From Hellea sp. (GTDB lineage: Bacteria; Pseudomonadota; Alphaproteobacteria; Caulobacterales; Maricaulaceae), in the NCBI GenBank assembly GCA_020631215.1, contig JAHDHS010000001.1, positions 1-64,000 of the forward strand: a stretch of 64,000 bases of DNA, given 5' to 3'. The first letter of the stretch is position 1; each line of letters starts with the position of its first letter. The notes beneath the pieces were generated by a model that searched no databases, was not told the origin of the DNA, and saw nothing but the letters and a program-made list of their open reading frames with translations. Shown here one piece after another: positions 1 to 47,714 of the stretch. The position numbers and the translations under genes are program-made.

Positions 1-18
1 TGCTATTTGATATCGTAT

Positions 19-44
19 GCTGAGCGCTAGATCGCCAGCGGGAG
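19..44 (+). repeat. 3'-end copy of the multicopy structured RNA element (5' part outside window)
   Basis: This 26-nt block starts GCTGAGCGC and ends CAGCGGGAG. It recurs at 32796-32821 (+) and 47361-47386 (-). Only two positions differ among the three copies: the tenth base (T here, C and A elsewhere) and a C/T near the end that turns a G-C pair into G-U. It can fold as GCTG-A-GCG, a six-base loop, then CGC-CAGC. In the two complete copies this hairpin is the 3' end of a longer conserved element, so the rest of this copy should lie left of base 1. The block is followed 23 nt later by TGTCATCCCGCAC (68-80), exactly as in the 47-kb copy. Confidence 0.6.
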
Positions 45-211: not shown

Positions 212-288
<77 letters not shown>

Positions 289-7844: not shown

Positions 7845-8000
7845 CCCAAGCGCGCTGGCGACGTCATTGGCAGGTCTTCTGACTTCCGGCTTGGACGGTG
7901 TTGGCGTCTTCCCGCTTTCGCAGTGACATGTGCCAACCCCTTGCCGGTTACAGCTGCGGGTGCAGTTGGTGAGTTTCACACCATTCCCATTTTCACCCGC
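7845..8000 (-). promoter_or_regulatory. cobalamin (AdoCbl) riboswitch
   Basis: Read on the minus strand, the element has in order GGGAATGGTGTGAAACTC (complement of about 7971-7990), ACTGCACCCGCAGCTGTAAC, GTCACTGCGAAAGCGGGAAG, and the B12 box AGTCAGAAGACCTGCC (complement of 7869-7884). These are the conserved blocks of the cobalamin riboswitch core in the right order and spacing. It lies about 120 nt upstream of the BtuB-like receptor and is oriented with it. The boundaries are approximate. Confidence 0.93.
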
Positions 8001-8010
8001 CGCTATCGCA

Positions 8011-8046
8011 AAGAAAAAGCGCCGGGCACCAATGCCCGACGCTTTA
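8011..8046 (-). terminator. rho-independent terminator of the degP gene
   Basis: On the minus strand AAAGCG-t-CGGGCA-ttgg-TGCCCG-g-CGCTTTTTCTTT forms a long GC stem followed by a T-rich tail. It lies 24 bp after the stop of the leftward protease gene and upstream of the riboswitch, so it separates the two transcription units. Confidence 0.85.
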
Positions 8047-8069
8047 TCAAATATTATATGCTTCGCAAG

Positions 8070-32500: not shown

Positions 32501-32532
32501 TAAATCCTCACCCTTCGAAACTCGCTTATATT
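32501..32532 (+). promoter_or_regulatory. promoter-like block of the structured RNA candidate
   Basis: TAAATCCTCACC (32501-32512) and TATATTCA (from 32527) recur on the minus strand at 47703-47714 and from 47688. In both places the first block starts 26 bp before TATATT. The spacing fits a -35-like or activator element plus a -10 box, giving a start near 32540. The bases between are not conserved. Confidence 0.5.
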
Positions 32533-32539
32533 CATACCG

Positions 32540-32821
32540 TTCCTTTCACAGGGGCAGGCAAGTGCACATTGCTTCGCTGGTGAGGGGACGGCGTTTGCCG
32601 GTGTAGCTTCGGGCGTAATGATCCCGAGGGCGGCTGGTTCAGCGCGAGCTGATTAGAGCACGACTATCTAGTTCGGCCGCTGGTAGAAGACGCCGCCGCA
32701 GGGTTTGGCCCCGCGTAAAATTGTTAGTTTTTTGGTGTTCCATCGCGGACGCTAACCCTGCGGACTGCCCCAATTATGAGGTTTACGCGAAAAAGGCTGA
32801 GCGCCAGATCGCCAGCGGGAG
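32540..32821 (+). ncRNA. candidate structured non-coding RNA, copy A
   Basis: This region aligns with the minus strand of 47675-47361. A long-range helix pairs GGGGCAG (32551-32557) with CTGCCCC (32765-32771); in the other copy it is GGGACAG with CTGTCC, a compensated change. GCAA/TTGC (32558-32572) corresponds to GTAAC/GTTGC there. CCGCAGGGTT (32696-32705) pairs with AACCCTGCGG (32754-32763) and encloses CCGCG/CGCGG; the other copy has a different 17-bp stem in the same place. The enclosed loop keeps GTAAAAT and a TGG-tgtt-CCA hairpin. The 3' end is the invariant hairpin 32796-32821. The two copies do not conserve a reading frame. I cannot match it to tmRNA, RNase P, 6S, SRP RNA or a riboswitch class. 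The ends are estimates. Confidence 0.55.
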
Positions 32822-32898
32822 AAGAAACTCGGCTTTAAGTATGGCCGCGCAGGTGAGCGTTCACAAAGCCGCAAGTTTCGGACGCGGCCCAGGCGGCA

Positions 32899-32968
32899 CC
32901 AGCCCACTCCCCCTCCCGACCACCCACAGGGTCATACTCATGGGTGGTCGGGAGGGGGAGTGGGCTGG
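32899..32968. repeat. perfect 28-bp inverted repeat
   Basis: Bases 32899-32926 and 32941-32968 are exact reverse complements with a 14-nt centre (32927-32940). The left arm is pyrimidine-rich (it begins CCAGCCCACTCCCCCTCCCG). As RNA it would be a very stable hairpin; as DNA it could extrude a cruciform. No T-run follows, so it is not a standard terminator. It lies about 80 bp past the structured RNA candidate. Confidence 0.85.
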
Positions 32969-33129
32969 AGATGCCCGCCGCGCCCTGTTCTTTCGTTCAA
33001 ATGCCTGGGCTCCTGCGCCGCAAATGAAAGGACTGACGAAAAGATGCTTTGCGTGAAAGACCTGTATTATGAACCTTGCGGGACTCGGTCATTAATGCGA
33101 GGTTCAGGGTGATTTTTGTAAGGTGCAAC

Positions 33130-47360: not shown

Positions 47361-47675
47361 CTCCCACTGGCGATCTTGCGCTCAGCTATTGGGTTAAATC
47401 CTTGAGGTAAGGACAGCCCGCGAACCCTGGCGTTCATGATGGACACCATTGGGTTAGAATCATATTTTACACGAACGCCAAGGTTCGCGGCGATGCGTTT
47501 TCGCTGACGGCCGGTATATACGCAGACAGTCAATGCAGATGTTGTAAATATCTGCACGTCTGGTCAGCTCTCGCCAGCAGGCCCGGCACAGCCGAATGTG
47601 TCACCACCCGGCGCTCAACCCGCACCGTCCTCTGACCCAGCAACTGACCGGTTACCTGTCCCAAGGCCAAAAGAA
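47361..47675 (-). ncRNA. candidate structured non-coding RNA, copy B
   Basis: This is the minus-strand counterpart of 32540-32821. Its long-range helix is GGGACAG (47656-47662) with CTGTCC (47411-47416). The main inner stem pairs CGCGAACCTTGGCGTTC (47473-47489) with GAACGCCAGGGTTCGCG (47419-47435), 16 of 17, and encloses GTAAAAT and an ATGG-tgt-CCAT hairpin. A further stem GCAGAT/ATCTGC (47535-47555) is specific to this copy. The 3' hairpin is 47361-47386. Downstream, 23 nt later, comes the arm of the palindromic element. An 85-codon frame through it is not conserved in copy A. Confidence 0.55.
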
Positions 47676-47682
47676 CAATTTG

Positions 47683-47714
47683 AATATAGGGGCGTTTTCA
47701 AAGGTGAGGATTTA
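47683..47714 (-). promoter_or_regulatory. promoter-like block of RNA candidate copy B
   Basis: On the minus strand TAAATCCTCACC (47703-47714) and TATATT (47683-47688) have the same 26-bp start-to-start distance as in copy A at 32501 and 32527. A start near 47675 is expected. Confidence 0.5.

Follow-up and report, generated by a model that had tools for sequence, protein, structure and literature searches.

Among the described systems closest to the locus reported here is OLE, a structured non-coding RNA of bacteria; it assembles into a homodimer in which one contact is a symmetric kissing loop with an evolving palindrome (PMC12286853, in its accessible text). The accessible part of the description of OLE gives a length of ~600 nt and an occurrence mostly in Gram-positive extremophiles. 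GOLLD and ROOL form homo-oligomeric RNA-only complexes partly held by kissing loops, with cages of 14 and 8 chains, and the argument that a palindrome speaks for intermolecular pairing has been applied to OLE and GOLLD loops (both from the accessible text of PMC12286853). The same text holds that, outside viruses, RNA homomers have scarcely been demonstrated to matter biologically; RNA homodimers have been mapped in living cells, according to the accessible part of PMC9104694. In the accessible text of PMC11109978, a mobile/repeat category of candidates rests partly on frequent transposase, integrase, nuclease or helicase association.

The locus described here, copy A, lies in a window of 64,000 nucleotides, which is the whole stretch of DNA that was analysed. 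The HIV-1 DIS, a part of the viral genome, is a hairpin loop whose six-base palindrome starts RNA dimerisation; GTGCAC and GCGCGC are DIS palindromes. In the HDV ribozyme, the helix order is P1-P2-P3-P1-P4-P2. The OLE, ROOL and GOLLD classes are included in Rfam 15.

An earlier note on this DNA had proposed a structured RNA present in many copies, with compensated helices and outside known families, and the tools used here agree. Beyond that note are the copy number, a pseudoknot, a self-complementary P3 loop and domain swapping. We conclude that copy A quite likely belongs to a large family of non-coding RNA genes, dispersed and each standing alone; the best reading of these genes is a predicted new class of self-dimerising structural RNA.

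The observation of the earlier note is confirmed, and the likeness of copy A to other sequences was above chance: copy A returned 47 blastn rows in its own genome, with a best non-self E of 8e-131. A query with copy B, which lies on the minus strand of the window, also gave 47 rows, at partly different places. Copies A and B match each other over just 46 bases, comprising the promoter and start (E 0.0015), and are thus in different subfamilies. Many copies sit at contig ends, as is expected because repeats break assemblies. The covariance model R1, which spans 87 positions of the promoter and 5' domain, found 51 matches at E<=1, and 42 at E<=1.3e-4, in the own genome of 2.5 Mb. Family-wide, with up to 32 candidates scored per genome, 30 of 137 genomes, spread over 6 of the 19 genera, matched R1 at E<=1e-4. 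Deeper scoring (E<=0.01) gave 53, 48, 56 and 33 matches in genomes G013, G009, G007 and G034, respectively, and zero in G014, G017, G005 and G001, which are of the same genus and 91-100% complete; the RNA is therefore not essential in some genus members. Order-wide, 22 of 398 genomes matched, all within the family except for two single weak hits of 34-35 bits.

Named genomes among the matches listed in a pattern scan were Litorimonas cladophorae KCTC 23968, Hellea sp. MAG-194 and uncultured Caulobacterales. The L. cladophorae genome had 53 matches (NCBI taxonomy places Litorimonas in Robiginitomaculaceae, Maricaulales). One Omnitrophota contig from the same scan was unconfirmed by R1. IMG/VR gave zero matches with three exact patterns; there was likewise no match in phage records with copy A as a query, or in plasmid records with one L. 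cladophorae copy as a query.

At gathering thresholds, Rfam 15 detected in the window only a cobalamin riboswitch (7852-8049, minus strand, 101 bits) and a tRNA (tRNA-Arg, anticodon CCG, 212-288, minus strand), both elsewhere. The stretches with copies A and B gave, at E<=10, sub-threshold matches, mostly to miRNA models. In 17 further loci scanned at E<=1, a SAM riboswitch was found in the upstream flank of a G034 copy, in the opposite orientation (L080:1274-1378, minus strand), together with four sub-threshold matches in the flanks of L119, L126 and L131. OLE, ROOL and GOLLD gave no match in the scans of the window, of copies A and B and of the 17 further loci, and the element itself, as the earlier note had expected, was without a match in Rfam.

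Two alignments were used to define the parts of the RNA: A3, with 44 5' domains, and A4, with 38 full-length copies. Copy A itself lies outside A4, and its closing helix is A4 helix 4 of relatives. The parts of copy A are as follows.

32501-32512, plus strand: upstream promoter box TAAATCCTCACC, at about the -35 position (copy A sequence)
32527-32532, plus strand: -10-like box TATATT (copy A sequence, 5' alignment)
32539, plus strand: inferred transcription start, the G of GTTC, 6 nt past TATATT (box spacing)
32541-32549, plus strand: P1 5' strand, partner 32580-32588
32551-32557, plus strand: P2 5' strand GGGGCAG, crossing P1 as a pseudoknot (A4 and direct reading of copies)
32558-32572, plus strand: P3 hairpin GCAA-GTGCACA-TTGC (A3 and A4)
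32562-32567, plus strand: hexamer GTGCAC in the P3 loop, self-complementary and the proposed site of kissing-loop dimerisation (loop comparison)
32580-32588, plus strand: P1 3' strand, partner 32541-32549 (A3 and A4)
32589-32593, plus strand: central-domain closing helix, 5' strand CGGCG (partner 32691-32695, read by eye)
32594-32690, plus strand: central multi-branched domain, variable, swapped among copies (A4 helices 5 and 6)
32691-32695, plus strand: central-domain closing helix, 3' strand CGCCG (A4 helix 4 in relatives)
32696-32763, plus strand: long hairpin CCGCAGGGTT...AACCCTGCGG (A4 helices 7, 100% of cells, and 8, 96.8%)
32765-32771, plus strand: P2 3' strand CTGCCCC (A4 and direct reading of copies)
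32796-32821, plus strand: conserved 3' hairpin block GCTGAGCGCCAGATCGCCAGCGGGAG (blastn matches, copy comparison)

In copy A, 26 bases separate the start of TAAATCCTCACC from the start of TATATT, the distance given in the earlier note, and the minus strand of copy B has the box at 47703-47714. Throughout the family, the promoter is an unusual one, a conserved box pair, ATCCYCRCC and TATATT, with a variable spacer; among 47 close copy pairs, identity was 94-100% at 36-32 and 30 bases ahead of the start, and not so in the spacer. The first G of GTTC, 6-7 nt beyond the second box, was taken as the start. The GT found there is invariant (44 of 44 aligned 5' domains), and copy-to-copy identity goes up at this point. 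Copy A is probably transcribed from G32539, judging by box spacing, and the predicted RNA, from GTTC through the end of the 3' block, is about 280 nt long. In many own copies a second, ATCCNCGC-like box lies ~70 nt above the main box, and is possibly a tandem promoter or activator site. An identical extra leader of ~104 nt is present between TATATT and GTTC in three own copies (L033, L059 and L063, on contigs C64, C61 and C79); since it is found under three different promoters, it travels with the RNA body. A weak R1 match to the promoter part only (L308:3425-3473, minus strand, own contig C69, 18.9 bits) immediately precedes a 225-aa ORF adjoining an sppA-like gene, and the RNA promoter type may drive protein genes too.

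The surroundings of 61 copies with flanks were compared. The downstream neighbour was on the same strand in 36 cases, on the opposite strand in 23, and not found in two; the orientation of the upstream neighbour was similarly mixed. Seven of the 61 copies fall within a mechanical ORF of at least 120 aa. No family was matched by more than three of 112 neighbouring proteins, and the protein flanking copy A had only weak, partial matches within the genus. A family member behaves as a stand-alone intergenic gene. At four loci from four genomes of two other genera (L117, L119, L131 and L133), an ORF of 92-148 aa lies 3' of the RNA, convergent with a common gene, which we take to be sppA-like. Small ORFs following some copies matched no convincing Pfam family, and the sppA-like neighbourhood in the source genus held no full copy. 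Three G009 copies (L262, L263 and L266) share a palindromic repeat of the GCGGGATGAC type directly upstream, and palindromes related to this type lie downstream of many own copies. Immediately downstream of copy A is an inverted repeat (32892-32975) with 35-nt arms that are 91% complementary; it is probably another dispersed repeat, since similar sequence is found 3' of a copy in L062.

RNAalifold, when run on the first 5' alignment, returned a misleading fold, because two P1 subtypes had been misaligned; in the rebuilt alignment the sequences end at CGG after P1. In A3, every cell of the four P1 pairs was paired, as were 84.9% of the P3 cells; the covariation score reached 0.500 versus 0.311 in shuffles, none of 500 being as high. 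The helices of A4 were found by a scan of all column pairs and then counted, so the structure was found on A4 itself; its 41 pairs were paired in 97.0% of 1552 cells, versus 88.9% in shuffles, and slid controls gave 41-52%. Both sides had changed in 23 pairs, with 145 double-sided cells versus 36.6 in shuffles (0/500 as high). Helix 1 of A4 is P1 (8 pairs, 97.7% paired), which by reading varies in length from 7 to 10 pairs. When 20 held-out copies were added to A4 without refitting, 744 of 801 cells (92.9%) were paired, compared with 40-50% in slid controls: 155/160 in P1, 72/80 in P2, 52/57 in P3, 98/100 in the central closing helix, 141/149 in the long hairpin and 63/79 in the weakest central helix. 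The covariation signal that the earlier note relied on thus persists after homologues are added (A3, A4 and the held-out copies).

P2 consists of a GGGAC strand within P1 that pairs with GTCC at the far 3' end, and since its 5' strand lies inside P1 and the partner far 3', P1 and P2 make a pseudoknot. All five P2 bases were paired in 95 of the 98 copies read with a search pattern that favoured such strands (GGGAC/GTCCY in 83, GGGGC/GCCCC in nine, AGGAC/GTCCT in three and one mismatch in three). In copy A, the predicted RNA combines the P1/P2 pseudoknot with the P3 hairpin, the branched centre, the long hairpin and a further hairpin at the 3' end. The 3' half of the fold rests on part of the family, as 105 of 167 copies fit the 3' pattern in the full-length reading; copies outside the pattern include several with other 3' domains (e.g. 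in G034 and G009), with inserts or with contig run-off. A4 cells contain 286 G-U and 11 A-C combinations, and we conclude from this excess that the RNA strand is the plus strand of copy A. Alternatively, P2's 3' strand can pair with sequence immediately downstream (e.g. GTCCTA..TAGGAC). A downstream stem scoring at least 4 was available to it in 33 of 97 distinct tails, versus 15.5 expected from shuffles, a mild enrichment, and a conformational switch between P2 and a downstream hairpin is possible.

The compensated pairs reported in the earlier note are present, GGGGCAG/CTGCCCC against GGGACAG/CTGTCC and GCAA/TTGC against GTAAC/GTTGC, and the CCGC..GCGG stem was found where it had been put; the long hairpin of copy A contains an inner stem CCGCG/CGCGG and TGG-TGTT-CCA. 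The common 3' block, GCTGAGCGC..GGGAG, is 26 nt long and differs between copies A and B at two positions, as had been stated. The proposed local CGGC/GCCG hairpin had to be given up: in the wider alignment CGGYG instead pairs with CRYYG about 100 nt or more downstream (A4 helix 4, where three copy-A-like rows are shifted in the alignment). The remaining features of the family in the window are listed below.

47361-47714, minus strand: copy B (blastn, R1 model, sequence reading)
47703-47714, minus strand: copy B promoter box (sequence reading)
47676, minus strand: copy B inferred start, GTTC from here (sequence reading)
47656-47662, minus strand: copy B P2 5' strand
47647-47652, minus strand: copy B hexamer ACCGGT
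47627-47637, minus strand: copy B P1 3' strand
47411-47416, minus strand: copy B P2 3' strand
47361-47386, minus strand: copy B 3' block
1-44, plus strand: third copy, 3' end, truncated by the contig end (match at 19-51, sequence read)

The P3 loop holds the hexamer GTGCAC in copy A and ACCGGT in copy B. The 165 copies compared reduce to 61 distinct P3 loop regions, of which 49 contain a perfect palindromic hexamer, of 17 kinds; shuffles gave a mean of 6.5 and a maximum of 13 (n=300). With G-U allowed, 57 of 61 loops were self-complementary (shuffles: mean 24.7, maximum 34), the eight G-U-dependent loops being weak evidence alone, because shuffles reach many such matches. A reading of 44 copies gave 35 perfect hexamers, and the other nine were self-complementary with a terminal G-U. 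The hexamer was missing from four of the 61 loops, two of which are mis-anchored regions that actually hold AGGCCT and GACGTC; the true exceptions are GAGATCG (three copies) and GGGACCTC (one copy). Since copies are related by descent and exchange, copy counts overstate independence, and the number of palindrome kinds, 17, is a safer measure.

Because a self-complementary hexamer leaves no bases over for a loop, it cannot fold back on itself, and its pairing must be intermolecular. This strongly suggests that two molecules would join via the P3 loop hexamer in a predicted homodimer. The P3 palindromes are, on the sequence evidence, what marks a homodimer joined by a kissing loop, such as that of HIV DIS or OLE RNA, and the changes among copies are palindrome-preserving, as in the symmetric kissing loops by which such contacts are recognised in the accessible text of PMC12286853. 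Eight hexamer kinds were found among 36 own copies read, and with several hexamers per genome the RNAs should sort mainly into like-with-like dimers; TGATCA and TGATCG copies, in which the last base alone differs, might mix. We suggest, tentatively, that the genome makes a repertoire of self-recognising RNA homodimers, from ~50 genes with one promoter type and one fold, with loop palindromes diversified and whole domains swapped under local promoters. If true, the repertoire would parallel, in RNA alone, the diversified multigene families of proteins.

The copies are mosaics: one and the same stretch of 109 bases from the start is joined to promoters, central domains and 3' ends that differ from copy to copy. 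In 47 own-copy pairs that were at least 96% alike over +1..+100, likeness extends from +1 to +109 (median 97% across the first 100 bases); upstream, the median identity is 0.57 in the spacer (-27..-14) and only 0.42 further out (-95..-41). Within the RNA, at +110, identity drops sharply a second time. Pairs picked on +46..+105 had a milder step at +1, where identity went from 0.66 to 0.96 and then to 0.72-0.81 at +8..+40; breakpoints therefore also fall away from the start. The rise in identity at the inferred start had brought up a retrotransposition model, which was down-weighted given the milder step in control pairs, the second drop at +110 and the absence of RVT_1 matches from the own genome and G013, both copy-rich, which means that a resident reverse transcriptase is not needed. 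Within the genus, RVT_1 was present in four of 12 carriers and in two of six genomes without RNA matches.

Among copies with flanks, 35 from the own genome and 20 from G013 had no position clearly in common, and for just two own copies was a neighbour gene similarly placed beside one of the sampled G009 or G034 copies (L041/L271 and L060/L277). G013 and G009 share three positions with common neighbours (one on both sides, two downstream only), where the hexamers differ between species, and the same pair of genes flanks one copy in two genomes of genus g12; some loci thus look old. Gene order around ftsY, where G009 also has a weak copy, is not kept in the genus, and this neighbourhood therefore could not reveal an empty site. 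The mosaics, the mostly different positions and the hexamer changes fit conversion or recombination among copies.

The main rival, compatible with the same anatomy, is a MITE- or SINE-like mobile element, non-coding and selfish, whose RNA or DNA would fold and dimerise only in the service of its own spread or conversion. Such an element would account for many dispersed copies with a patchy distribution (53, 48 and 56 in three genus members, none in four), for positions that mostly differ between genomes, for close pairs that are alike from +1 to +109 and unlike upstream, and for concerted, mosaic evolution. We nevertheless consider it rather unlikely, because RVT_1 is absent from the own genome and G013 despite their many copies, no transposase or integrase recurs among the 25 commonest of 177 families matched by the 112 neighbouring proteins (a scope that could hide single ones), no copies were found in IMG/VR, phage or plasmid records by the queries used, the three G013/G009 positions and the g12 position look old, and the identity step at +1 is milder under the +46..+105 choice of pairs.

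A riboswitch-like cis-acting leader or terminator of the next gene, whose fold would switch when the P2 3' strand re-pairs downstream, is very improbable: the downstream stem in 33 of 97 distinct tails (15.5 expected) and the small ORF after the RNA beside the sppA-like gene at L117, L119, L131 and L133 speak for it, but in 23 of 61 copies the downstream neighbour has the opposite orientation, copy B and the gene next to it converge, and the neighbours have no common family. Palindromic hexamers and hairpins would also suit a DNA-level hairpin or a palindromic protein-binding repeat in which RNA structure is incidental, and many elements adjoin other palindromic repeats. The 286 G-U versus 11 A-C cells on the RNA strand, the conserved promoter block immediately upstream, 17 palindrome kinds, unlike the site of a single protein, and the crossing of P1 and P2, unlike a simple DNA cruciform, make that explanation hard to credit. 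An HDV-like self-cleaving ribozyme is equally hard to credit; the family does have the nested pseudoknot order P1-P2-P3-P1-P4-P2 (here P1a-P2a-P3-P1b-(P4 region)-P2b), but no Rfam ribozyme matched even at relaxed thresholds, the 5' end of the RNA is the promoter-defined start, with no leader to cleave in most copies, and the length of P1 varies from 7 to 10 pairs.

For a family of stand-alone genes of a self-dimerising RNA, the following mechanism may be proposed. One promoter type would drive dozens of RNA genes per genome, and each transcript would fold into the P1/P2 pseudoknot, P3, branched centre, long hairpin and 3' hairpin. The P3 hexamer would then join two molecules, giving homodimers that are mainly like-with-like. 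More speculatively, the homodimer might be a structural two-fold scaffold for a protein or other ligand, a role that we guess by analogy with OLE RNA; no linked or co-occurring partner protein was found. Also speculatively, recombination between copies would keep the fold alike and vary the sequence. With 17 different palindromes at one loop, evolution has repeated an experiment many times, and the family opens three questions to direct test: is dimerisation under selection, do the various dimers within a cell leave one another alone, and by what means do ~50 RNA genes keep one fold while being shuffled?

Literature on these organisms and such RNAs yielded no description in the set searched, outside which subscription papers mostly lie. 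Like HDV-like ribozymes, the family has a crossing P1/P2 order around P3, and differs from them in the absence of a covariance-model match. With the mobile/repeat category, as far as the accessible text of PMC11109978 describes it, the family shares several structured copies per genome, and differs in that the gene association was not found. Both GTGCAC and GCGCGC occur among the P3 loop palindromes; the HIV-1 DIS is one viral locus, whereas the RNA described here forms a multigene family, and a sequence relation is not claimed. GOLLD and ROOL resemble it in kissing-loop self-association, which here is predicted from sequence, but they form cages, and since only one self-complementary loop is evident in our RNA, a dimer and not a cage is predicted. 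OLE is likewise a structured bacterial RNA with a kissing-loop dimer, such as is predicted here; our family is shorter, is present in dozens of copies per genome, and has hexamers of 17 kinds. Kissing-loop homodimerisation is already known, and, as far as the literature was searched, a dispersed ~50-member family with diversified palindromes is new; the newness is in the fold and the genomic habit, not in the kissing loop as such.
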